NCBI GenBank assembly: GCA_018335035.1
Contig: JAGXKT010000023.1
Coordinates: 1-38,505, forward strand
Length of the DNA: 38,505 nucleotides
Source of the DNA: Phycisphaerae bacterium
GTDB lineage: Bacteria; Planctomycetota; Phycisphaerae; SM23-33
Direction of reading: 5' to 3'
Part shown: positions 22,458 through 36,674 of the stretch, piece after piece
How the letters are laid out: the number at the start of each line of letters is the position of its first letter
How positions within the stretch are numbered: the first letter of the stretch is position 1
The notes under the pieces: model-generated
Seen by the model: only the letters and a program-made list of their open reading frames with translations
Databases searched by the model: none
What the model was told of the DNA's origin: nothing
Program-made: the position numbers and the translations under genes

Positions 22458-23474
22458 TCATTTGGCTAGGACGTTGTCGCCCCCCCGGCCGTGGCCTGCG
22501 GGCCCATCCAGACGAGCGACCAGAAGGCGGTGCAGATGCGGCAACGTGGCCTTGTGATCGCCCTGGATGTAGTGGCTCGTCCCGCCATCGGCCACCGTCC
22601 GAACCAGAAGCGTCTTGTAGGGACGATAGTAGTACTCGGGCGTGTCCTTCGCCGCTTCTCGCGTGAGATCGCCGTTCAGCGCAACGAGGTCGAACACGGC
22701 CGCGGTGAACCGCCGCAGCGCCCGCCCCTGCCGGGCGGCAACGTTGCGAACCATCGACAGCGCCTTGAGATAGACTTCCGGGCCCATCACGGCCGTGCCG
22801 TAGCACAGGACAACCCCGCCTTCGAGGCGTTCCATCACGCGGGTCAGGACGAGGAAATCCCGATAGCTGGCCCGCCCCGCCGCGGCGGCGTCGAAGTTCG
22901 GGTGCTCGTGAATGATGTCGTAGCCGATGCCGAGATGCACGGTAACCGGCACGCCGTATCGCCAACCCGCGGCGAAAATCGACACGTCTTTGTTGACCAG
23001 ATCGGATTCGGCAACGTGCCGGCCCAGCGCCTCGCCGAAGCCCTGACTCGCCGCGTCGCCCTCGCGCACCACGTCGTTGATCGCACCGGTCTCGGACCAT
23101 AGGCCGAACCGGCCCTGGCGGATCGTCTCGGCCACCGATTCGCTGGTGGCGCCAATCCGCGCCAACTCGTAATCGTGGATGGCACAGGCCCCGTTGACCG
23201 CCACGACGGAAACCCACCCGCGGCGGATGAGGTCGATCACATAGCGACTGAGTCCCTGCTTGATGACATGGGCCCCCATGAGCAACACGACGGCGGCGCC
23301 GCGCTGCACGGAATCGGCTACGGCATCGGCCACCGGCTCCAGGGACGGCGCATCGCACGGCAGCGGCGCGTCGCCAAGAGCCAGCACGTCCTCGACGCGC
23401 ACGAGGTGCCTGCGCTGCGCCAGCGGCCGCAACGTCAACTGAGAGCGATCGAACTGCTCATAGGCGCTGGTCAT
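22458..23474 (-). CDS. Conserved protein, possibly deoxyhypusine-synthase-like
   Basis: The 338-residue product starts at ATG 23474 (MTSAYEQFDRSQLTLRPL), with GGAG 5 nt upstream. It has a strongly ordered alpha/beta pattern: VVLLMGAHVIKQGLSRYVID, VSVVAVNGACAIHDYELARI, FGLWSETGAINDVV, VPVTVHLGIGYDIIHEHPNF and VVLCYGTAVMGPEVYLKALS. The alternation of hydrophobic strands with Gly- and His-containing loops suggests a Rossmann-like NAD-binding fold of the deoxyhypusine synthase group, but I do not see a clear catalytic Lys motif and the assignment is inference. The gene stands alone on its strand between the HicB-like gene and a divergent Spy-like gene. Confidence 0.55.
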   Translation of the reverse strand: MTSAYEQFDRSQLTLRPLAQRRHLVRVEDVLALGDAPLPCDAPSLEPVADAVADSVQRGAAVVLLMGAHVIKQGLSRYVIDLIRRGWVSVVAVNGACAIHDYELARIGATSESVAETIRQGRFGLWSETGAINDVVREGDAASQGFGEALGRHVAESDLVNKDVSIFAAGWRYGVPVTVHLGIGYDIIHEHPNFDAAAAGRASYRDFLVLTRVMERLEGGVVLCYGTAVMGPEVYLKALSMVRNVAARQGRALRRFTAAVFDLVALNGDLTREAAKDTPEYYYRPYKTLLVRTVADGGTSHYIQGDHKATLPHLHRLLVARLDGPAGHGRGGDNVLAK

Positions 23475-23672
23475 GGATACTCCGGCCGCACACATCCGCC
23501 TTTGCTCAACGCTCGTCAGAATACCGCTCGCGTCGGGACGTGTCCATGCCCGCGCCGGCGAAGAATCCGCCGCGCGCTGCAATAGAGTGCGTCCGGCCGC
23601 GTTGATCCGTTCAGCCGGCGCAGCGTGCGGCGTCGTGCCCGCCGGCGAGGATATCAGCCAAGGAGACAAACG

Positions 23673-24864: not shown

Positions 24865-26544
24865 ATGCGAAGCCACATGGTGCATACGGGGATCATCGTG
24901 ATAACCCTTGCGCTGGCGAGCGCCGGATGCGTTCAACCGGGCGCGTGGGACGGCGGATCGCTCGGACAGTACCAACGCGCCCGCGTCGACAGGGCGCCGC
25001 AGCCGCGTGGCAGCGACGCGCTGGAGCCGTACCGACCGGCTCGCGAAACGAAGCTTCCGACGCTGGAGGTCAGGACGGACGCCGATACGGGCCGGCGGCA
25101 CGTGCGCCTGTCGCTCGGCGACGCCGTCATCCACGCGCTGGCGGCCAGCCCCGAAATCGGCGTGGTCGCCTTCGACCCGGCCGTGTCGCGCGAGGAGGTC
25201 GTCCAGGCCGCGGCCGCGTTCGACGCCGAGGTCTTTGCCGAGTGGGCCCGCCGCAAGACCGACGAGCGAACGGACAGCACCGCCGGCGGCGGCGAGGCCG
25301 AGGTCCGCAGCGTGCAGGCGGGCCTGCGTCAGAAGATTCCCACCGGTGCCGAGTGGGTCCTCAGTTGGGCGGCGACCGACACGCGCGACGACGTAATCAC
25401 CCGGACGCTACACCCGCGATACGAGCGCAAGGCGTCTCTGCAGATCACGCAACCCCTGCTCCGCAACGCCTGGCCGGCGTTCAATCTGGCCCAGCTGCGT
25501 CTGGCGCGGGTCAGCCATCGCCAGACGCTCGAGGCCTTCCGCGAGACCGTCGAGGAGGTCGTCGCCGCCGTCCACGCCACGTACTGGCAACTCGTCCGTG
25601 CCCGTGGCGACGTGACGATTCAGGAGGAGCTGATCGCCTATACGCAGGACACGCTCGACCGCCTGCGCGCGCGTGCGGAATTGGATGCAACCAGCGTGCA
25701 GATCAGCCAGACGGAGGCGGCCCTGCACGCGCGGGAGGAGGCGCTGCTGCTGGCTGTTCAGAAGCTTGCCGACGTCCGCGAGCAGCTCGCCCGCTTGATT
25801 TCGCATCCCGAGCTTCCGCCCACGGCGCCGCTGGTGATCGAGCCGACGACCCAGCTCGTCACGGCACCGGTGGACATGGACGTCAACGACCAGTTGCTCA
25901 CGGCGCTGCACCACAGCCCCCAGTTGGCTCAGGCGCGCCTGGAGATCGAGGCGGCGGACATTCGCGTCACCGCGGCCGAGAGCGAGGCGCTGCCGCGGCT
26001 GGATATCACGGCCGGCGCGACGCTCCAGGGACTCGCCGGGGGACGGCACGGCGCGACCGAAGACCTCGGCACGCTCGACTACGCCGGTTACGAGCTGGCG
26101 TTCACGTTTGAATACCCGCTGGGCAATCGTCAACGGCTGGCGAACCTGCGGGCGGCGAGGCGCCGACGGCACCAGGCGGTCGCGAGCTTCCAGAACGCCG
26201 CAGACCGGCTCGCCGTGCGCGTTCGTGAGCGGCTGCGTGCAGCCGAGACGGCCCGCCGGCGCGTCAGCGTTCAGCAGGCGGCGGTGCACTCGGCCGAAGT
26301 GCAACTTCAGGCGATCGAAGACACCGAGAAGGTTCGCGGGGCACTGACGCCGGAGTTCATTCTGGTCAAACTGCAGGCGCAGGAGACGCTGGCCGATGCC
26401 CGGCGGCGCGTGCTTCAGGCGCGTCAGGACTACAACGTCGCCCTGGCGGAGTTGGCACGCGAGACGGGGACCATTGCGGACTTCTCTGCCGTCAATGTCG
26501 CCCTGCCGACCGGCGAGTCGACAACGCGGCGGGCGCCGGAGTAG
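24865..26544 (+). CDS. TolC-type outer-membrane efflux lipoprotein
   Basis: The 559-residue product is an outer-membrane channel of the TolC/OEP family, which forms trimeric tunnels through the periplasm and outer membrane. It begins with a lipoprotein signal (IIVITLALASAGC, with lipid-modified Cys at residue 22). Two OEP repeats follow, each with long coiled-coil helices, for example DATSVQISQTEAALHAREEA and later RRRHQAVASFQNAADRLAVR. The strand-forming segment RKASLQITQPLLRNAW is typical. AAGGGAG lies 8 nt before ATG 24865. It is convergent to a cluster of adaptor, M50 and SecA-like genes and is the likely outer-membrane exit of that system (inference from context). Confidence 0.9.
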   Translation: MRSHMVHTGIIVITLALASAGCVQPGAWDGGSLGQYQRARVDRAPQPRGSDALEPYRPARETKLPTLEVRTDADTGRRHVRLSLGDAVIHALAASPEIGVVAFDPAVSREEVVQAAAAFDAEVFAEWARRKTDERTDSTAGGGEAEVRSVQAGLRQKIPTGAEWVLSWAATDTRDDVITRTLHPRYERKASLQITQPLLRNAWPAFNLAQLRLARVSHRQTLEAFRETVEEVVAAVHATYWQLVRARGDVTIQEELIAYTQDTLDRLRARAELDATSVQISQTEAALHAREEALLLAVQKLADVREQLARLISHPELPPTAPLVIEPTTQLVTAPVDMDVNDQLLTALHHSPQLAQARLEIEAADIRVTAAESEALPRLDITAGATLQGLAGGRHGATEDLGTLDYAGYELAFTFEYPLGNRQRLANLRAARRRRHQAVASFQNAADRLAVRVRERLRAAETARRRVSVQQAAVHSAEVQLQAIEDTEKVRGALTPEFILVKLQAQETLADARRRVLQARQDYNVALAELARETGTIADFSAVNVALPTGESTTRRAPE

Positions 26545-26611
26545 CGTTCTGACGGCTTGCGACGCGAGCGCCAGGCGAGCCGGCCGACAGTAATCCGGCG
26601 GACCCCGCGGC

Positions 26612-28600
26612 TTACCCCTCGCGCCCCGCGAAGCCGAGGTATTCGTCCAGCCAGTCGTCGGTGCGAAGGACGCCCTTACGCTGCCGCAGCGCCAGGCGCT
26701 CGGCGCGGCGCTGGGCCACCGAAAATACGCGGCGCGTCAGCGCGGAGGAAACCTCCCGATCGGTCCCGCCGTAGCGCGTCCGTAGCGACCCCGACAGACG
26801 CGGTGCGTGGCGGCGAACCAGCTCGTCGTCCAGGGCGACGACCGCCTCGACCGAACCGGGCTGGCCCTGGCGGGCACATCGCCCGAAGAGCTGCCGGTCG
26901 ATTCGCCCGGCCTCGTGACGTTCCGTGGCGATGACGACCAGGCCGCCGATCTCCTCCACGCCGCAGGCCAGGCGAATGTTCGTGCCCCGCCCGGCCATGT
27001 TCGTCGCCACCGTAATACGCCCGCGCATGCCCGCCGAGGCCACGATTTGGGCCTCCTCGGCATGGCGCACGGCGTTGAGCACCTGGTGGTCAAGCTCGCG
27101 AGCCGTCAGCAGTTCGCTGAGGTGTTCGCTGGCGCCGACACTCCGCGTTCCGATCAACACCGGCCGACCCTCGGCGTGCAACGCGCTGATCCGCTCGACG
27201 ACGGACTGCCACTTCGCCTCGGCGGACGCAAAGACCCGGTCCGGCGCGACTCGCCGAATGCACGGGCGGTTGGTCGGAATCACGACGACCGGCAGGTGGT
27301 AGATCTGCCAGAACTCGCGCCGCGCCTCGGCGGCCGTGCCGGTCATGCCCGCCAGATGCCGGTACAGCCGGAAGAACCGCTGGAAGCTGACGCGCGCGTA
27401 CGTGTCCTTCGGCGGCTCGACCTCGAGGCCTTCCTTGGCCTGGACGTGCTGGTGGAGGCCGTCGCGCCACTCGCGGTCCGGCATGAGCCGCCCCGTGAAC
27501 TCGTCAACGATCACGACCTTGTCGTCCTGGACAACATAGTGCTTGTCGCGGCGGTAGTATACGCCGGCCGTCAGCGACTGGACGACCAACTCCTCGGCGC
27601 GACGCGCGCCGGCCCAGATGCCGCCGCGTCCGTCCGTCAACGCGTCCAGACGGCGACGGCCCGCCGGAGTCAGTTCCACCTCCCGATAGCGGTCGTTGGT
27701 GCGGAAGTCCCGCCTCGGCTCAAGCTGCTCGGCCAGTGCGGCCGCTTCAGAAAAGGCCTTGGCCTGCTCGGGATTCGGCGCCTGACCGGAGATGATCAGC
27801 GGTGTGACGGCCTCGTCGATCAGCACGCTGTCGGCTTCGTCGACGATGGCGTACTCAAGCCCACGCTGGACGAGGCGGTCTGCCCCGCTGGCCCGGCCGC
27901 GGTCGATCCGTTCCAACAGCACCTGCGGCAGCGACCGCAGACGCCCCAGCGCCAGGCGGTCACGAAGGAAGTCCGCCGTGACTTCCTTGTTCGTCAGGTA
28001 CGTGATGTCCGCGGCGTAAGCGTCGCGCCGCGCGGGCGCTTCCATCTCCGAATCGACGTGGGCGACGCGAAGCCCACAAAACCGGTAGACCGGCGCCATC
28101 CATTCGGCGTCGCGCTGGGCGAGGTAATCGTTGACGGTCACGACGTGGCAGCCCCGCCCGCGCCAACCGGCCACCGTCGCCGGCATGGTCGCCACCAGCG
28201 TTTTGCCCTCACCGGTGGCCATCTCCGCGACGCAACGTGCGTGCAGCGCCAGCGCCCCGGCAACCTGGACGGGGAAAGGTCTCTCGCCGATCTTCCGGAA
28301 GGCCACCTCGCGCACCACCGCGAAGGCCCGTTCGAGATCGGCCCGCGTGTCCCGTCCGCGCCGGAACACATCGCGCAGCTCGGCGGCGGCGTCCCGCAGG
28401 CGCGCGTCCGAGATGTTCGCGAAGTGCCTCTCCCAAGCCAACACCTTCTGCGCACGACGGAGGAAGCGACTCGTCCGCGTCGTCAGCCGGCGCGCACGCC
28501 CGGCCGCGGCATCCCAGGCAGCGTCCAGACCCTTGGGAAGCTCGCGTTCGCCCGCGCCGGCCGTCAGCGTCCGCCACGTTGTACTCGGAAGCGTTGCCAT
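26612..28600 (-). CDS. Short SecA-like ATPase (accessory SecA)
   Basis: The 662-residue product is a DEAD-box translocation ATPase of the SecA family. Walker A reads EMATGEGKT (126-134), where housekeeping SecA has MRTGEGKT or MKTGEGKT. It is followed by HVVTVNDYLAQRDAEWM and Walker B IVDEADSVLIDEAVTPLII (254-257 DEAD). The preprotein-binding domain is present, then DEFTGRLMPDREWRDGLHQH, GMTGTAAEARREFWQIY, VATNMAGRGTNIRL and RIDRQLFGRCARQGQPGS. The protein ends right after AQRRAERLALRQRKGVL, where the scaffold helix continues in normal SecA. The wing, the IRA hairpin and the zinc tail, about 200 residues, are therefore missing. It is the last gene downstream of the M50/HlyD gene. I infer it is a dedicated motor, not the housekeeping SecA. 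Confidence 0.88.
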   Translation of the reverse strand: MATLPSTTWRTLTAGAGERELPKGLDAAWDAAAGRARRLTTRTSRFLRRAQKVLAWERHFANISDARLRDAAAELRDVFRRGRDTRADLERAFAVVREVAFRKIGERPFPVQVAGALALHARCVAEMATGEGKTLVATMPATVAGWRGRGCHVVTVNDYLAQRDAEWMAPVYRFCGLRVAHVDSEMEAPARRDAYAADITYLTNKEVTADFLRDRLALGRLRSLPQVLLERIDRGRASGADRLVQRGLEYAIVDEADSVLIDEAVTPLIISGQAPNPEQAKAFSEAAALAEQLEPRRDFRTNDRYREVELTPAGRRRLDALTDGRGGIWAGARRAEELVVQSLTAGVYYRRDKHYVVQDDKVVIVDEFTGRLMPDREWRDGLHQHVQAKEGLEVEPPKDTYARVSFQRFFRLYRHLAGMTGTAAEARREFWQIYHLPVVVIPTNRPCIRRVAPDRVFASAEAKWQSVVERISALHAEGRPVLIGTRSVGASEHLSELLTARELDHQVLNAVRHAEEAQIVASAGMRGRITVATNMAGRGTNIRLACGVEEIGGLVVIATERHEAGRIDRQLFGRCARQGQPGSVEAVVALDDELVRRHAPRLSGSLRTRYGGTDREVSSALTRRVFSVAQRRAERLALRQRKGVLRTDDWLDEYLGFAGREG

Positions 28601-28727
28601 TTATGAATGCACAGCCAAGCCCACAGGTGCGCCGATCGCACGATTCCCAAACGCCCGGGGCCCGATACGACCCGCAATCCGTCTCCACCGCGCCGGCCGC
28701 GCCCGCAGCGTCGCGCCACCATCGGCC

Positions 28728-30926
28728 TCAGATGCGGAACCGTCTCTGGAGCAAGCGACGCAGCGCGCCCCACCACTGGACGGCCAGCGGTTTGGACGGC
28801 AACTCGAAGCGGACCACGACGCGCTGCCCCGGAAGCAGCCGCGGGCGACCGGATCGTGCCGCCAACGGACGGATGCGCACCTGGAAGACCGGTGCGGCCG
28901 CCGTGGTTCCCTCGGCATCCTTGGGGTCCGTCGCGATGGGCCCGCCGACGGCGTAACCCAGTGCGGCCGAGGGAAGCGCACGATCGCCGACGGGGAAGAC
29001 ATCAAGCAGTCGCCCGTCGAGGTGGTCGTCCGGCCGGCCTGACACACGAATCTCGACGCGCTCGTCGGCCTCGTCGATCAGGCGTTTGTCGGCTTGATCA
29101 ACGACAGCGCGAATGTGCAGCGCTTTCAGCGCCGCGACTCGCCCGATCTGCTCACCGCGGCGGAAAAAGCGGCCTATCATGCCCCCGGCCTGGGCGGGCA
29201 GCCACAGACCCGCCTGCGGCGGCGCGACCGCCAACGATGCCCGGCGTCTTCGGAAACGTTCCAGTTGCCGCTCCGTGTAGGCGATGTGCCCGTCAAGCAC
29301 TCTCACTTCCCCCGGATCACGCGTCTCGGGCGCTGTGGCGATGGCCCTGCGGCGGCGGAGTCCCGCCAGATTCGCCTTGAGCCGCTGAATGACGTCCTCC
29401 AGTTTCGGGTTGCGCAGCCGCACGACCACGTCTGAGGCGGGGTGCACCGGCGCGCACGGGTCACGCAGATCGTCGATGAACCCGTCCTCCGGCGCGTAGA
29501 CCTCGACCAGTTCGACCGGCTCGACGACGCCCTCGACACGGACCCGCTCCGGCGCGGGGATCGCGCCGATGGCGACCGCCACCAGCACGATGAACACCGC
29601 CGTCGCCGCCACCGCCCGCCCGCGCGTCCGATCCAGCTCGCCGCTGGTCAACAGGTAGCGAACGAACTTGCCCAACGGCACACAAAGCCACATGAACGCC
29701 GCCACGGCCGCGAAGAGGACGGCGATGATCGCGAACTGCTTGGGCAGCCGGTCGGTCACGAACAGCAGAATTAACGCGAAGATCACAACGCGATAGAGCG
29801 TCGAGGCGATGCCGTAAAACACGAACCAGATGCGCTCCCCGGCGGTGTGAGCCGGGTTGCGACTGCGCTGGGCGCCGAAAACGTACCGCTTGACGAGGTA
29901 CTGCAGGTACTGCCGGCTGCGCGGCGCCAGGTTGGGAATCTCCACCAGATCCGACAGAACGTAGTACGCGTCGTAGCGCAGCAGCGGGTTGCCGTTGAAC
30001 AGCAGCGTGGAGATGCTGGCGATGAACATGACGTTGTAGCAAATCGCGCTGAGCGTGCTGTTGCCCGTATGCTCCCAGACAATGGCGGCGATCGCCGCGA
30101 TCGCCAGCTCGACCATCACGCCGGCCGTGCCGACCACGATGCGATGGCGCTTGAGACGGAAGGCCCAGGCGCTCGAGGCATCCACGTACGGAAGTGGCAG
30201 GAACACGAGAAGCATCACGCCCATGACGTGCACCTCGCCGCCGGTGCCCGTCACCCGCCCGAAGCGTTTGACCGCGAACGCATGGCCGAACTCGTGGCAG
30301 ATCTTCGTGATGATCATCGCCACGTACAGCAGCGGCAGGTTGGCCGCGCTGAACAGCCCCTCGGTGCGGTCGGCCAACTCGCCGAGCCGCCCGGCGACGA
30401 AGTATCCGCCTCCAAGCAGAACGCCCAACCACACCACCAGCCCGACGGGGCTGAATATGCGCCCGAACACCCCCACCCAGCGATTCAGGAAATGCTCCGG
30501 GTCGATCAGCGGAATGCGGATGAACAGCAGGTTCGTCAGGTAGCTCTGCACCTCGCGGCGACGTCGCTTGCTGTACCGCTTGAGCAGCCCCTCGGCGTCC
30601 GGCGGCAATTCCGCCATCAGGAGGTTGGACGCGTAAAGCTGCCCGAGAAGCTGAATCGCCTCGCCCTGGGTCGGCGCCGCGTCGCCCAGCCGGTCACCGG
30701 CGATCTGCCACGCGTCGGCCACCGTCCGCCGCCCGTCCAGCAGCGCCACGAAGCCGTAGGCCGGTTCCGACATGCGGAGAAAGTCGTTGCTGGCCGGGTC
30801 GGCCAGTACGTGCCACATCCGCCCGCGGAAGTGCTGGCGGTGGACCTGTACCCCCGCCCTCAACCGCGGACGCAATGACCCCACGCGGTACCACGACTCG
30901 CTGAATGTGGGACGATCAACCGGCAC
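28728..30926 (-). CDS. PqqD-like / M50 metalloprotease / HlyD adaptor fusion protein
   Basis: This 732-residue membrane protein has three parts. Residues 15-110 resemble a PqqD-type peptide-binding domain (RLRAGVQVHRQHFRGRMWHV, then FVALLDGRRTVADAW). Residues 130-455 are a polytopic site-2-protease-like M50 domain with zinc motif HEFGH (211-215) and third ligand in NPLLRYD (Asp319). Residues 465-732 form a periplasmic HlyD/barrel-sandwich adaptor with a coiled coil (PKLEDVIQRLKANLAGLRRR, then AYTERQLERFRRRRASLAVA). Start is GTG 30926, with GGGAG in front. It lies 62 bp downstream of the GAF-HlyD gene and 127 bp upstream of the SecA-like gene. A role as a substrate-processing and export core is inference. 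Confidence 0.88.
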   Translation of the reverse strand: MPVDRPTFSESWYRVGSLRPRLRAGVQVHRQHFRGRMWHVLADPASNDFLRMSEPAYGFVALLDGRRTVADAWQIAGDRLGDAAPTQGEAIQLLGQLYASNLLMAELPPDAEGLLKRYSKRRRREVQSYLTNLLFIRIPLIDPEHFLNRWVGVFGRIFSPVGLVVWLGVLLGGGYFVAGRLGELADRTEGLFSAANLPLLYVAMIITKICHEFGHAFAVKRFGRVTGTGGEVHVMGVMLLVFLPLPYVDASSAWAFRLKRHRIVVGTAGVMVELAIAAIAAIVWEHTGNSTLSAICYNVMFIASISTLLFNGNPLLRYDAYYVLSDLVEIPNLAPRSRQYLQYLVKRYVFGAQRSRNPAHTAGERIWFVFYGIASTLYRVVIFALILLFVTDRLPKQFAIIAVLFAAVAAFMWLCVPLGKFVRYLLTSGELDRTRGRAVAATAVFIVLVAVAIGAIPAPERVRVEGVVEPVELVEVYAPEDGFIDDLRDPCAPVHPASDVVVRLRNPKLEDVIQRLKANLAGLRRRRAIATAPETRDPGEVRVLDGHIAYTERQLERFRRRRASLAVAPPQAGLWLPAQAGGMIGRFFRRGEQIGRVAALKALHIRAVVDQADKRLIDEADERVEIRVSGRPDDHLDGRLLDVFPVGDRALPSAALGYAVGGPIATDPKDAEGTTAAAPVFQVRIRPLAARSGRPRLLPGQRVVVRFELPSKPLAVQWWGALRRLLQRRFRI

Positions 30927-30988
30927 GACAACTCCCTGACCACAGCCGTCTCAACGCAAAGCCCACGCCCCCCAGTGGATCGGCGGCG

Positions 30989-32869
30989 TCACAGCCACAG
31001 CTTCATGCGGATCCAGTTGACCAGCCGTCGCGACCACAACCACGCGTAGCTGCGCCGGTCAATGTGAACCTTGGCAACGCCTTCCATGCCCGGGCGCATC
31101 CACTCCGGACGCCGGTCCAGCTTCAGGCGCACCTTGAAGACGTTGCCTTTCTCGACCACCTCGGCCACGGGGCGAATCCGCTCGACGACGAATCCGACCT
31201 TGCGTCCGGGGAACGCCGCCGGAGCCAGTTCGCCCCGCTGACCCGGGCGAACCTCGGCGATCTGGTCTTCGGGAATCGCCACCTCGGCGTAGATCGCGTC
31301 GAGGTCGGCAACCTCGAACAGGGGCTTGCCCCGCTCGACGCGGCTGTCCCTGCGTTGCCGCAAGGACTCGCTGATGACCGTTCCGTCGAACGGCGCGCGC
31401 ATCGCGGCCCGCTCGATGTCCGCGGTGAACTGGTCGATCTGTGTCTGGGCCTTTTCCGCCTCCGTCATGGCGATCTGCGCCTCGGCTATCTTGCCCTCGC
31501 TACGGGCCGTGGCGGCCTTCTGGAGCGCCTCGCGGCGATCGAGTCGCGCGCCCTCGAGCTGCCGCTGAAGGTCCTCGGTCTCCAGCGCGCCGAGGGCGTC
31601 CCCGGCCTCGACGCCGTCGCCCGGTTCGACCTCCACGTCCGCCAGGAAGCCGTCGTACGGTGCCGCAACGACCTCGTGCCGGTCCGTGATAAGCGTAAAC
31701 GTCCCGGCGGCCGTATAGGTCCCCTTGGCAAACACCAGAAAGGCAATCGCCGCGCAGACGCCCAGAGCAATCAGCTTGAGCCAGGTATGCTTGGGCCCGA
31801 CGAGCTTCGCCAAACCACTGCGAAGCGCCGACGCCGCCCGCGCGCCGAACCAGCGGTCCGTATGGTGAAGGTCGGCGACGCGGGGCGTCAGCAGATCGGC
31901 CGTCAGCCGCAGTGCCTCCGTTTCGTCAGCCGTGACGGGCTTATCGCTCGCGCGCTCGACCGTGAGCACGCCTATGGGCTTGTCGTCCTGGCGCAGGGGC
32001 AGCGACAACACGGACGTTCGCCCGTGGTGCTCGCTGAGCTCGCCGGCGGCGCGGCAGACGTACGTCGCCTCAGCGTCGGGCGGGTGGGCGACCTCGACGT
32101 CCTGATCCAGGCATTCCTCCATCGCCGACTCGATGTCCTGGACAAGCTTCATCTTGCGGCTGAACTTCTCGGTGTGGCTCAGTGCTTTGAGCCGGACGTA
32201 GCGCCCCTTGAGAAAGCCCATCGCCACGCGTTCGCAGGCCCACCGGCTGGCGATCTCGTTGCATGCGGCCATCGCTGCACCGGCGAACCGCCGTTGCGCG
32301 TTGACCGCGGCGAGAACCTCCATGCCGCTGCGCAGCCGGGCGACATCCGCATCGCGCTGCCGCAAGCTGAGGCGCATCTCGTACAGCGTCAGCAGCGCCC
32401 CGGTCAGTTCGAGCTTCTCGCGGGCGGCCTGCAGCGTCGCGGCGTCGGACGTCTCCACGAGAAACGCCGCCACCCCGTAGGTCGACTGCGCGCCCCGCCG
32501 CAACGGCGTCAGCACCGCGTGTCGCTCGGCCGGCTGACCGTAGAGGGCGTCATCGCGATGAAGTGCGAGCGTCTGCACACTCGCCAGCCCCTCCTGTCCG
32601 ACGCGCTGTGCCGCCTCCATCAGCCACGCCGGCGCCTTGCCGCCGGCATCGAGTCCCGGCCAGGCCGCCATCACGGACACACCTGCCGGCGTGGCGCGGA
32701 AAACCGCGCCGGCGCTGGCGCCGCTGAGGCGGCACTGCACGGACAGCAATTCGGTCAGAAACGCCGCCGGCGGACCGTCGAATTCCAACAGGTGGTCGAT
32801 CCACTCGGGCGTCGGGCTCGCCTCGGACGACGCCCCGGGCGTGGCGGAATGCGTGCGTTGGAAAGCCAT
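30989..32869 (-). CDS. GAF-GAF-transmembrane-HlyD adaptor protein
   Basis: The 626-residue product combines sensing and export parts. Residues about 35-160 and 180-330 look like two GAF domains (for example YGVAAFLVET and KPIGVLTVERASDKPVTADE), which would lie in the cytoplasm. One membrane helix follows (LIALGVCAAIAFLVFAKG, about 365-382). Residues 385-626 form a periplasmic HlyD/membrane-fusion domain, with the lipoyl halves VVAAPYDGFLADVEVEPGDG and AAMRAPFDGTVISESL around a short coiled coil. The order suggests ligand control of a periplasmic adaptor. It is encoded directly upstream of the M50/HlyD fusion on the same strand. Confidence 0.85.
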   Translation of the reverse strand: MAFQRTHSATPGASSEASPTPEWIDHLLEFDGPPAAFLTELLSVQCRLSGASAGAVFRATPAGVSVMAAWPGLDAGGKAPAWLMEAAQRVGQEGLASVQTLALHRDDALYGQPAERHAVLTPLRRGAQSTYGVAAFLVETSDAATLQAAREKLELTGALLTLYEMRLSLRQRDADVARLRSGMEVLAAVNAQRRFAGAAMAACNEIASRWACERVAMGFLKGRYVRLKALSHTEKFSRKMKLVQDIESAMEECLDQDVEVAHPPDAEATYVCRAAGELSEHHGRTSVLSLPLRQDDKPIGVLTVERASDKPVTADETEALRLTADLLTPRVADLHHTDRWFGARAASALRSGLAKLVGPKHTWLKLIALGVCAAIAFLVFAKGTYTAAGTFTLITDRHEVVAAPYDGFLADVEVEPGDGVEAGDALGALETEDLQRQLEGARLDRREALQKAATARSEGKIAEAQIAMTEAEKAQTQIDQFTADIERAAMRAPFDGTVISESLRQRRDSRVERGKPLFEVADLDAIYAEVAIPEDQIAEVRPGQRGELAPAAFPGRKVGFVVERIRPVAEVVEKGNVFKVRLKLDRRPEWMRPGMEGVAKVHIDRRSYAWLWSRRLVNWIRMKLWL

Positions 32870-33042
32870 GGTGCGTGTGCTTTCTGCGCGTCAAAGCGCT
32901 TCACGTTGTGCGGCAGCGTTCAGTGCCGATTGCGACGCAGGCGGCCCGGAGCGGCGGCCCCGGCCTGCTGCGGCCGAGGGCGTCGACCCCGCCGGGATCG
33001 GCCTCGCTCAAGTGGCCTTGCTACGCGCAGATGGCACGGGCT

Positions 33043-33205
33043 CTGGAGCAATTTAACTTTTTCTGAAACGTTCGGCCTGCCTGCGGCGTCGCCATGCTGC
33101 GTCCCCCCTGGCCGTACGGCCTGAGGCATCGGCTGCTTCGGCGTCCTTGCCTGGCTCGTCCTCGGCGACGGCCGATCCGCTACATAAAAAGTCAAACTGC
33201 TCTAG
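33043..33205. mobile_element. MITE-like element of about 163 bp with 28-nt inverted terminal repeats
   Basis: The left end (33043-33070, beginning CTGGAGCAATTTAACTTTTT) matches the minus strand of the right end (33178-33205, CTAGAGCAGTTTGACTTTTT) at 22 of 28 positions. The interior has no gene. The rightmost bases contain the stop codon of the DUF3467 gene (33202-33204). The ends are AT-rich in a GC-rich setting. I see no clear target-site duplication. It fills half of the 332-bp gap between the DUF3467 and GAF-HlyD genes; I see nothing else in that gap. Confidence 0.6.
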
Positions 33206-33591
33206 TCACCGGTTTCCTGGCGCCGCTTGGCGACGTCCAGTTCCAACTCACCGAACTGCTGCTCGTGACGGCGGACCAACTGGCTGAGCGTCACCGCCAG
33301 GCGCTTGGCCGAATACGGGCTCAAGATGACCCGGTCGGTCACCTGGAAGGTGATCTCCGGCTGCTGACCGTCCGGCCCCGTGGGGCGGATGATATTCAAA
33401 CCGAAGTCCATCATGACTTCCTCGGCCGTGGCGTTCGTCCGGAACGCATTGGCGTAGGTCGTCTCGAGATTCCGCTCGTCGACGCGGACCTGCACCTGCT
33501 GCTGGCCCGTCTGCTGACGTGCCTGGTCCTGCTCGCTCAACGGCTGGCCGGCGCCTTCAGGGCCGATGTTCGGCGTGTCGTTGTTTGCCAT
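33202..33591 (-). CDS. DUF3467-family protein
   Basis: The 129-residue product matches the DUF3467 family of small soluble proteins of unknown function. The core reads NLETTYANAFRTNATAEEVM, then FGLNIIRPTGPDG, and EITFQVTDRVILSPYSAKRL. The first 40 residues are Gln-rich and probably disordered. I chose ATG 33591 (MANNDTPNIGPEG) because GGAG lies a few bases upstream. The stop codon lies inside the terminal repeat of a MITE-like element. Neighbours suggest that it belongs to the adaptor/M50/SecA-like cluster, perhaps as a cytoplasmic accessory (inference). Confidence 0.85.
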   Translation of the reverse strand: MANNDTPNIGPEGAGQPLSEQDQARQQTGQQQVQVRVDERNLETTYANAFRTNATAEEVMMDFGLNIIRPTGPDGQQPEITFQVTDRVILSPYSAKRLAVTLSQLVRRHEQQFGELELDVAKRRQETGD

Positions 33592-33670
33592 CTCCGTCAC
33601 TCCTTGTCGAGTATATCGTTTTTGCGGCATTACTGCGGCGTTCGCGTGACAACAGCGTCGCCGCCTCGCG

Positions 33671-34531
33671 TCACTCCTCATCGACCGCGTCGCGGTCGAC
33701 GAACGTTACCGTCACGGGCTGCCCTGCAGGCCGCCGCTGATGATTGGCGATCTCCACACGCACCATCAGCGTCTCGCTGGCGGCGTCGCCAACCGAGCTG
33801 ACGTGGATGATGATTCCCTCGGCTCTCGCGGGTGCCGACGCCGATCGACCGGCCGGCGCCTCGGCAACGTCGGGGAACGTGACGACCGCCGCGTCGCCAA
33901 CGTCCAGGCGGGCGGCGCGGGCCAACGGCACGGGCACGTCCACCCACAGCGGATCGATCCGCACGATGCGCAGCACCGGGTCCAGGGCATTGACCGCCTC
34001 GCCCTGCTCGACGCTCACGCGTTCCACGATGCCGGCCGTCGAGCTTCTCAGGCGGCGGCGCGCAACCTCCAGCTTCGCCTGCTGGTAGCTGCGTCCGGCC
34101 TGGGCACGCTCGAATCGTGCCAATGCCAGCGACATCTCCGCAATCGTCACGTCGAGTTCGGCGTGCTCGACCTCCCGGTCCGTCGCCGCGCCGCGTGTGC
34201 GCGCCTCGGTCAGCTTGGCGAGGTCCACACGCGACTGGGCCAGGCGTGCCTCAGCCGCCTTGACGCGGATGTCGTCCTCCGCCTGGGCCTTGAGGTGAGC
34301 CAAACGCGCCTGTTCGGGGGCGTCGTCCTGGCGGATAAGCAGTTGGCCCACCTCGACGCGATCACCCGGCTCGACGAGGACCTCGGCGATCTGCCCCGGC
34401 TGGACGAACGATAGCGTCACGTCGCGACTGGGGACGACGACCGCATCGATAAGGTCGTCCGCCGGCGCACCGGCACCGGCAAGCGCCAACACGCACACCG
34501 CCCCAACTTGCGACATCCGACGGCCTGTCAT
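33671..34531 (-). CDS. Periplasmic adaptor (membrane-fusion protein, HlyD/RND type)
   Basis: The 286-residue product is a short membrane-fusion protein. After a signal peptide (MSQVGAVCVLALAGAGA, with start at 34531 or the ATG at 34516) come the first lipoyl half (LSFVQPGQIAEVLVEPGDRV) and a helical hairpin rich in Ala, Arg and Glu. The second lipoyl half (LRSSTAGIVERVSVEQGEAV) and a beta-barrel domain follow. No inner-membrane pump gene follows, unlike usual adaptor-RND or adaptor-ABC pairs. It is the first gene of the minus-strand cluster, so it may connect the cluster to the TolC-type channel (inference). Confidence 0.88.
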   Translation of the reverse strand: MTGRRMSQVGAVCVLALAGAGAPADDLIDAVVVPSRDVTLSFVQPGQIAEVLVEPGDRVEVGQLLIRQDDAPEQARLAHLKAQAEDDIRVKAAEARLAQSRVDLAKLTEARTRGAATDREVEHAELDVTIAEMSLALARFERAQAGRSYQQAKLEVARRRLRSSTAGIVERVSVEQGEAVNALDPVLRIVRIDPLWVDVPVPLARAARLDVGDAAVVTFPDVAEAPAGRSASAPARAEGIIIHVSSVGDAASETLMVRVEIANHQRRPAGQPVTVTFVDRDAVDEE

Positions 34532-35029: not shown

Positions 35030-35113
35030 GCCGGAGTGGCGGAATCGGCAGACGCGCGGGATTCAAAATCCCGTGATGGCAACATCGTGTGGGTTCGAGT
35101 CCCACCTCCGGCA
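35030..35113 (+). tRNA. tRNA-Leu (anticodon CAA); likely attachment site of the element to its right
   Basis: An 84-nt class II tRNA with acceptor GCCGGAG/CTCCGGC, discriminator A, anticodon arm CGGGA-TTCAAAA-TCCCG (anticodon CAA), a long variable arm (TGATGGCAACATCGT) and T arm GGGTTCGAGTCCC. No CCA is encoded. An integrase gene lies 214 bp beyond its 3' end, which is the usual layout when an element has integrated into a tRNA gene. Confidence 0.96.
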
Positions 35114-35327: not shown

Positions 35328-36674
35328 CTATGCCTGAGCCAGCGTCGCGATGGCCTGCTTGACGTGATCCGGCAACTTCGCCCACTTGGTGGCGAGCGAA
35401 GCCAGGTCGTCCGGAACCGATGCGGGGGCCTCGTTCGACGACCCACCAAAGACGGACGGAAGGTTCTCCACGTCGTTGGCGAGATCTTTCATCTCCACGT
35501 GGGTATAGACGTTCATCGTCAGGTCAATCGTACTGTGCCGAGCCAGCGCCTGGGCGTTGCGGGGGTGAACGCCAGCGCGGGCGAGGTTGGAGATGAAGGT
35601 GTGGCGCAGGGCGTGGAAGTCGACCACCCGGCCGCGGTTGTCTTCGGCGTCGATGTCGGCGGCGGTCAGGTCGATGCGGAGCATCTCGGCCCCGTGGCGC
35701 TGGGCGGCCCACTTGCCGGGCCAAAGGGGCTGGCCTTCGGGCTTGCCGGCCAGCCAGGCCTGCACCATCTCGGCGATGTCCCGCCTCAAGGGCAGTTCGG
35801 CCTCCTGGCCGTTTTTCGTGTAACCGCCCTGGCACCGCACCGCCGGCTGCGGCCCGTCGATCTCCACGCTCTCCGGCGTCAGGCTGGCTAGTTCGCTGGC
35901 CCGCAGGCCGGTGTTCACGGCAATCAGGTAGAGCATTGCCCGGTCTTCGCCCGAGAGATCCATGAACGGCTCGGGCGACTTTCGAGTCGTCTCGATGAGC
36001 CGCCGCACCTCGTCGTCGGTCAACGGCCGGCGCTTCCGCGTGCGGTTGGCGTCGGTCACCTTGATACAGGACATGCCGGCCAGCGGGTTCTGGCGGCAAC
36101 GCCTCGCGCGAACCATCCATCGGCAGAACGCCCGCATGGCCCGAAAGTACCCATTGGAGGTCCCGACGCTCATGTCCTGGCGGCGCCAGCGGGCGAGGCA
36201 CTCGTCGACGCGCTCGGCCGTGATATCGCCGAACCGCTTTGCCGAGATATCCGCCACGATGCGCTTGCACCTGGCGATGGTCTTGTCGATGTGCTCGTGG
36301 GTGTTGCCCTTGTCCTCCATGTAGGCCTCGAAATCGAACAGGTGCTTGTCGAGCGGCTTTTTGCGATGCTCGGCCAACGTGTCGACGATGCCGACCTCGC
36401 CACGTTCGAGCATCTTGAGCAGTTCAATCTCCCGGGCGCGGGATGCCTGCCGATCGGTAAACGCCCGCCACTCGCGGTACTTGCCCGTGTCCGGATCCTT
36501 CAGGCGGACGTACCAGCATTCGGATTCGTAGACGAGGCGGTCGCCCTTGCGGTTCAACGGACGGAGGCGCGGCTTGCCCGCCGGCGTATACCACTTGGCG
36601 TAGCGCCTGCCGTCTTCCTCGAAGACGGTGGCGCCTTTCGGGATGGGCCGAGTGTGCCTGCGCTTGGTCAGCAT
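35328..36674 (-). CDS. Tyrosine-type site-specific integrase
   Basis: The 448-residue product is a phage/island-type integrase. The N-terminal 100 residues contain an arm-type region with Trp/Tyr-rich repeats (RRYAKWYTPAGKPRLRPL, ESECWYVRLKDPDTGKYREW). The core-binding domain is at about 105-200. Catalytic residues are Arg258 (NTGLRASEL), Lys287 (YTKNGQE), His354 and Arg357 (HALRH), His380 (ARHSTIDLT) and Tyr390 (NVYTHV). The gene points toward tRNA-Leu and is the first gene of the inserted element. It very probably catalyses integration at that tRNA. Confidence 0.93.
   Translation of the reverse strand: MLTKRRHTRPIPKGATVFEEDGRRYAKWYTPAGKPRLRPLNRKGDRLVYESECWYVRLKDPDTGKYREWRAFTDRQASRAREIELLKMLERGEVGIVDTLAEHRKKPLDKHLFDFEAYMEDKGNTHEHIDKTIARCKRIVADISAKRFGDITAERVDECLARWRRQDMSVGTSNGYFRAMRAFCRWMVRARRCRQNPLAGMSCIKVTDANRTRKRRPLTDDEVRRLIETTRKSPEPFMDLSGEDRAMLYLIAVNTGLRASELASLTPESVEIDGPQPAVRCQGGYTKNGQEAELPLRRDIAEMVQAWLAGKPEGQPLWPGKWAAQRHGAEMLRIDLTAADIDAEDNRGRVVDFHALRHTFISNLARAGVHPRNAQALARHSTIDLTMNVYTHVEMKDLANDVENLPSVFGGSSNEAPASVPDDLASLATKWAKLPDHVKQAIATLAQA

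Follow-up and report, generated by a model that had tools for sequence, protein, structure and literature searches.

The gene cluster at positions 24,865 to 34,531 of the window (the whole stretch of DNA analysed here, 38,505 nucleotides in length) probably encodes an export machine dedicated to proteins with an N-terminal LEPR-XLL leader, a reading that draws on domain matches, gene order and genome-wide co-occurrence. The proposed connection would join two loose ends: an orphan SecA/type I-like locus, reported in 2015 without a substrate, and the widespread LEPR-XLL motif of giant surface proteins, for which no export route was known. Should it hold, some of the largest bacterial proteins would have an export path of their own, SecA-type motors and leader-reading PqqD domains would each gain a new function, and cargo could be listed by means of a simple sequence tag.

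Gene content, protein domains and distribution of the cluster

The source genome comprises 2.74 Mb on 82 contigs and is 97% complete; the window corresponds to contig C13. Judged by the short SecA, the nearest named relative is a Phycisphaerae bacterium, with 68% identity over that protein. Five co-directional genes lie on the minus strand in the order HlyD, DUF3467, GAF-HlyD, PqqD-M50-HlyD and short SecA, and a TolC-type gene on the plus strand is convergent with them. The first-pass annotation had placed these six genes correctly, and Pfam and NCBIfam matches agree with its assignments. As it had also stated, none of the genes within the cluster encodes an ABC, RND or MFS pump.

The stand-alone HlyD-type adaptor (33671..34531, minus strand; 286 aa) carries a signal peptide and was recognized by its HlyD match (Pfam/NCBIfam). 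The DUF3467 gene (33202..33681, minus strand; PF11950, 5e-18) probably starts at 33591 instead of 33681. It recurs beside the module in other loci, and DUF3467 was found in unrelated control genomes too. The predicted core of the protein has a beta-beta-beta-alpha arrangement, and a Foldseek search with this core, carried out with a SecB-like chaperone in mind, returned no match at E < 0.3. The GAF-HlyD fusion adaptor (30989..32869, minus strand; 626 aa) was assigned from GAF and HlyD_D23/HlyD_3 matches and a homologue alignment. The outer-membrane channel of the TolC/OEP family (24865..26544, plus strand; 559 aa; PF02321, 5e-30) has a hydrophobic signal core and a lipobox-type N-terminus (ALASAGC).

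A tRNA-Leu gene (35030-35113, plus strand) and a phage-type integrase gene (35328-36674, minus strand) are found just outside the cluster, a hint that it is bordered by an integrated element. Elsewhere in the window, the gene at 22458-23669 (minus strand) encodes a protein that matches arginine dihydrolase ArgZ in its C-terminal Rossmann region (PF21570), with a score close to the cut-off.

The 732-aa PqqD-M50-HlyD fusion (28728..30926, minus strand) gave no Pfam match at E 0.01 and was assigned from domain matches at relaxed thresholds, invariant motifs and predicted fold. At relaxed thresholds, PqqD was matched at residues 39-103 (30618..30812, minus strand), together with weak M50 and weak HlyD matches. 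The motifs HExxH and NPxxRxDxY are invariant across the aligned fusion homologues; in the window the zinc-protease motif reads HEFGH (residues 211-215; 30282..30296, minus strand), with H211, E212 and H215 invariant in two homologue alignments. A HlyD fold is predicted at residues 458-728, where the model matches MacA, AcrA, MexA and EmrA with Z 12-15; the HlyD/MacA-like periplasmic adaptor part is placed at residues 460-710 (28797..29549, minus strand).

The PqqD fold binds leader peptides in RiPP enzymes. PF05402 (PqqD) was matched at the same position in 9/10 fusion homologues and exceeded the curated cut-off in 5/10, with the window protein itself falling below it (E 0.0026). Plasmid homologues of the fusion are labelled 'PqqD family peptide modification chaperone' by NCBI. 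The predicted model shows three strands followed by three helices across this region, and residues 18-105 superimpose on 6jx3_B (Z 9.6, 83 residues, rmsd 2.8), the leader-bound RRE (RiPP recognition element) of a protein that binds lasso-peptide leaders, in a comparison where unrelated chains give similar Z and the model has a pTM of 0.43. Sequence is for this reason the stronger line of evidence for PqqD. Taken together, the M50 protein probably reads leaders via its PqqD domain.

The fusion also resembles the NCBIfam model daptide_HExxH (NF041824; 3e-47) and, in common with RiPP leader readers (PqqD/RRE) and the daptide protease, joins a PqqD fold to a membrane zinc protease. This likeness could mean that the PqqD-M50 part serves RiPP-like maturation and export of short peptides, as in daptides, with giant proteins as its neighbours for some other reason. 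We consider this most improbable: the score of 161.5 bits is about half of the 300-bit cut-off, the neighbourhood survey found no recurrent short precursor gene near the module among ORFs of at least 90 aa, and LEPR proteins co-occur with M50-HlyD genome-wide. Moreover, the window protease differs from those systems in being fused to a HlyD adaptor and in travelling with proteins that are hundreds to thousands of residues long.

Co-occurrence in other genomes, which had been proposed as a check, holds across phyla, as does gene order: GAF-HlyD, M50-HlyD and short SecA recur in this order in Planctomycetota, Verrucomicrobiota, Alpha- and Gammaproteobacteria, with HlyD, DUF3467, TolC and sometimes SapC around them. 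Of 51 neighbourhoods chosen for carrying the module, so that the counts are not prevalences, 48 contained M50-HlyD, 45 GAF-HlyD, 39 short SecA and 35 HlyD; the length cut misses short ORFs, so DUF3467 is undercounted. No ABC, RND or MFS family recurs beside the module in about 50 neighbourhoods. The earlier reading of the cluster as an export path thus stands and gains a candidate cargo, although the system is not undescribed, as set out below.

LEPR-XLL proteins as candidate cargo

NCBIfam NF012209 describes the 24-residue LEPR-XLL motif, which in the searched genomes lies close to the N-terminus of proteins that are often giant. Its co-occurrence was measured with M50-HlyD because a contig profile search with short SecA mostly returned canonical SecA. 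A sample of 244 planctomycete genomes was searched with both LEPR and M50-HlyD profiles. With NF012209 unmodified, LEPR proteins were found in 20/75 genomes with M50-HlyD versus 2/169 without it (Fisher 1e-9), genomes not being independent units in this or the other co-occurrence and linkage statistics. A custom LEPR profile, built mainly from gammaproteobacterial sequences and from none of the window's class, raised this to 35/75 versus 2/169 (Fisher 5e-19), the latter count fitting the approximately 1% of genomes expected to match by chance at the E-value used. Within the window's own class, the custom profile matched 19/21 genomes with M50-HlyD and 0/20 without (p 9e-10). With families counted instead of genomes, M50-HlyD is present in each of the 10 that have NF012209 (10/26 versus 0/39, p 3e-5). 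An independent set of 276 gammaproteobacterial genomes searched with NF012209 gave 20/37 versus 2/239 (p 2e-18).

The association is not complete in either direction. About half of the genomes with M50-HlyD have no LEPR match, and four genomes, the planctomycetes G087 and G228 and the gammaproteobacteria G329 and G452, have LEPR proteins without M50-HlyD. RND genes near LEPR in G452 resemble a metal-efflux CusA/CusB pair.

Physical linkage points in the same direction. Cases of a LEPR gene at most 15 kb from M50-HlyD number nine in Planctomycetota, where 1.3 would be expected, and seven in Gammaproteobacteria, against an expectation of 0.3; this distance limit was chosen after the data had been seen. 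At locus L046, the gene ahead of the GAF gene encodes a golvesin/fn3/dockerin protein whose motif reads LEDRVLLSG, and at L243 and L245 a DUF4347-type LEPR protein follows HlyD. In a plasmid collection, 13 records, all alphaproteobacterial, carry M50-HlyD; the thirteenth, CP081100, was left out, its match statistics being nearly equal to those of NZ_CP123586. All 12 records examined encode a LEPR protein of about 4,000 to 12,700 aa directly upstream of the machine genes, two of them counted only once a mis-annotated start had been corrected: in Rhizobium johnstonii (NZ_CP140822.1 315825-345980) and Alisedimentitalea scapharcae (NZ_CP123586.1 158778-183224) the annotated start lies too late and the motif is in frame just upstream. 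The LEPR gene of the Pseudohalocynthiibacter plasmid crosses the start of the record, so its two parts were read separately. Cultured alphaproteobacteria carrying the whole set on a plasmid leave the model open to direct test.

LEPR N-termini are mostly basic, with the motif about 13 to 50 residues from the start, and no hydrophobic signal core was detected in them (mean best window 1.2, versus 2.4 in real signal peptides). Downstream of the motif, the proteins carry extracellular domains: C25 gingipain-type and S8/subtilase proteases, an amidase with a golvesin C-domain, DUF5060, PA14, fn3, cadherin, DUF4347 and dockerin. Two are encoded in the source genome, one on contig C10 with DUF5060, fn3, PA14 and cadherin domains (CETLEPRLMLDA) and one on contig C77 with DUF4347, Ig and cadherin domains (CEHLESRLLLSA); both genes lie on contigs other than the window's, unlinked to the cluster. 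The motif also occurs in very long open frames (G475:C84:83224, 14,112 aa; G228:C97:8609, 13,664 aa). With 22 LEPR matches in G137 and 12 in G147, many LEPR proteins are present per one or two machines, and the leader may be a general export tag in these genomes.

RTX-type repeats are a hallmark of type I secretion, and some giant LEPR proteins contain many RTX-like motifs. LEPR proteins might, then, leave the cell by an ABC-type type I system encoded elsewhere, in which case the cluster would have another task, for instance in sensing or envelope maintenance, and be associated with them indirectly. A Vibrio LEPR protein with RTX-type repeats (PMC10868602) and the four genomes with LEPR but no M50-HlyD are in keeping with such a route. 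Nevertheless, it appears improbable: several giants, those of Rhizobium, Mesorhizobium and Pseudosulfitobacter, are almost devoid of RTX-like motifs, linkage is direct in 12/12 plasmid records and no ABC gene recurs near the module. We regard the LEPR proteins as very likely the cargo of the cluster, which is the firmest part of the export model. No paper linking LEPR-XLL to SecA or HlyD was found in the open-access journal literature searched, and as far as that literature goes the link to the SecA/M50-HlyD cluster, as drawn here from sequence, would be new.

The short SecA and loci without it

The short SecA-like ATPase (26612..28600, minus strand; 662 aa) matches SecA_DEAD (4e-103), the SecA preprotein-binding domain (SecA PP-bind, 1e-25) and P-loop_SecA in Pfam/NCBIfam. 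The Walker A motif, the DEAD-like motif, GMTGT and GRxxRQGxPG are kept in the homologue alignment; Walker A reads ATGEGKT in the window (residues 128-134; 28199..28219, minus strand), of which TGEGKT is invariant. Similarity to Bacillus subtilis SecA stops at residue 607 of 841, bearing out the claim that the C-terminal third is missing, while both ATPase lobes (NBD1 and NBD2) and the preprotein cross-linking domain (PPXD) are kept. In SecA, the region missing here contains the wing domain and the two-helix finger. A separate canonical SecA is encoded elsewhere in the genome, a point that the first-pass annotation had asked to be checked. In a tree that took in this canonical SecA, the short SecAs of Planctomycetota, Verrucomicrobiota, Alpha- and Gammaproteobacteria form one side of a 100/100 branch, opposite the canonical SecAs. 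Planctomycetota, Alpha- and Gammaproteobacteria all keep the SecA motifs and the gene order.

With accessory Sec systems (SecA2 or SecA2-SecY2), the cluster shares a second SecA paralogue beside genes for large surface proteins. It differs in that the short SecA lacks the C-terminal third, has adaptors and TolC as partners and scores well below the cut-off of the NCBIfam SecA2 models.

The short SecA is usually co-encoded with the module, but it is not invariant. Five genomes (G461, G433, G515, G422 and G232) carry LEPR and M50-HlyD without a detectable short SecA. In G461, a gammaproteobacterial genome almost all of which is on one contig of 4.1 Mb, genes for LEPR, TolC, two adaptors and M50-HlyD follow one another; the loci of G447 and G428 are interrupted by contig ends. 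On a complete plasmid of Thalassospira marina, the operon consists of LEPR, DUF3467, GAF-HlyD, M50-HlyD, HlyD and TolC, and within this operon there is no SecA. A quick tree of M50-HlyD places most loci with short SecA in one large group, inside which two losses are seen, and several SecA-less lines lie outside it. LEPR tracks M50-HlyD more faithfully than short SecA.

An RND or ABC pump beside the same adaptors in the absence of the SecA-like gene had been named as a case that would speak against the proposed system; no ABC or RND pump is conserved at the SecA-less loci, and the idea that these loci conceal one was not supported.

Because it is absent from some genomes with LEPR and M50-HlyD, the short SecA is either replaceable or not the motor. 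The latter would hold if PqqD-M50-HlyD, the adaptors and TolC formed an exporter core fed by canonical SecA/SecYEG, with the short SecA as an accessory or remodelling factor. Both the genomes that do without it and the scatter of such loci over several separate places of the M50-HlyD tree favour this arrangement, which we nonetheless consider rather unlikely: the short SecA is present in 39/51 neighbourhoods, in most of them as the next gene, and retains every ATPase motif, both losses within the main clade fall on long branches, and LEPR proteins lack a Sec signal. The short SecA as the motor, the weakest step of the export model, is held with moderate confidence.

In a planctomycete of another class (G108; L052 7066-8775), the short SecA gene follows a gene for a Ser/Thr kinase with an FHA domain, GAF-HlyD is convergent, and M50-HlyD lies far from short SecA in the genome.

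Proposed route and relation to known systems

In the proposed machine, the cytoplasmic PqqD domain would bind the basic LEPR leader, and the short SecA, in most lineages, would drive the chain, still unfolded, over the inner membrane, with either the M50-HlyD/adaptor assembly or SecYEG as its passage. The M50 site may then clip the leader, a step for which we see even chances, and HlyD, GAF-HlyD and TolC would carry the chain out of the cell. GAF and DUF3467 might regulate or chaperone, with a possible sensing role for GAF. In its fullest form, the scheme would be a non-standard route in which an N-terminal leader is read by PqqD, a truncated SecA powers passage via a membrane-protease/adaptor complex that does not involve SecYEG, the leader is removed and TolC provides the exit for proteins reaching about 14,000 residues; this version, put together from sequence features, is advanced tentatively, as somewhat less than an even prospect.

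Type I secretion (HlyB-HlyD-TolC) likewise uses HlyD adaptors and a TolC channel and handles large extracellular repeat proteins. The window cluster, in contrast, has no ABC transporter, and its candidate signal is N-terminal instead of C-terminal.

The initial description of the system as undescribed did not survive comparison with the literature. Kamneva, Poudel and Ward (2015; PMC4452313) reported a secondary SecA_DEAD locus and put forward a near-identical export idea, with SecA as the ATPase and the M50 protein as the pore of a type I-like system. The genes are the same (a short SecA without the wing-scaffold region, M50 with HlyD, GAF with HlyD, HlyD and sometimes OEP), as are the phyla and the notion of SecA in place of an ABC ATPase. 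The features that mark this locus are found in the window: besides the canonical SecA there is a second SecA_DEAD protein lacking most of SecA_SW, and M50-HlyD, GAF-HlyD, HlyD and OEP genes adjoin it. No substrate is given there, and the role is described as 'completely unknown'. In the text consulted, PqqD, DUF3467, LEPR, SapC and SecA-less variants, all of which the present analysis includes, go unmentioned.

SapC-family genes (PF07277) were observed beside the module in five loci (L241 14120-14914, L246, L242, L251 and L053), and another (NZ_CP123586.1 183557-184354) adjoins the giant LEPR gene on the Alisedimentitalea plasmid.
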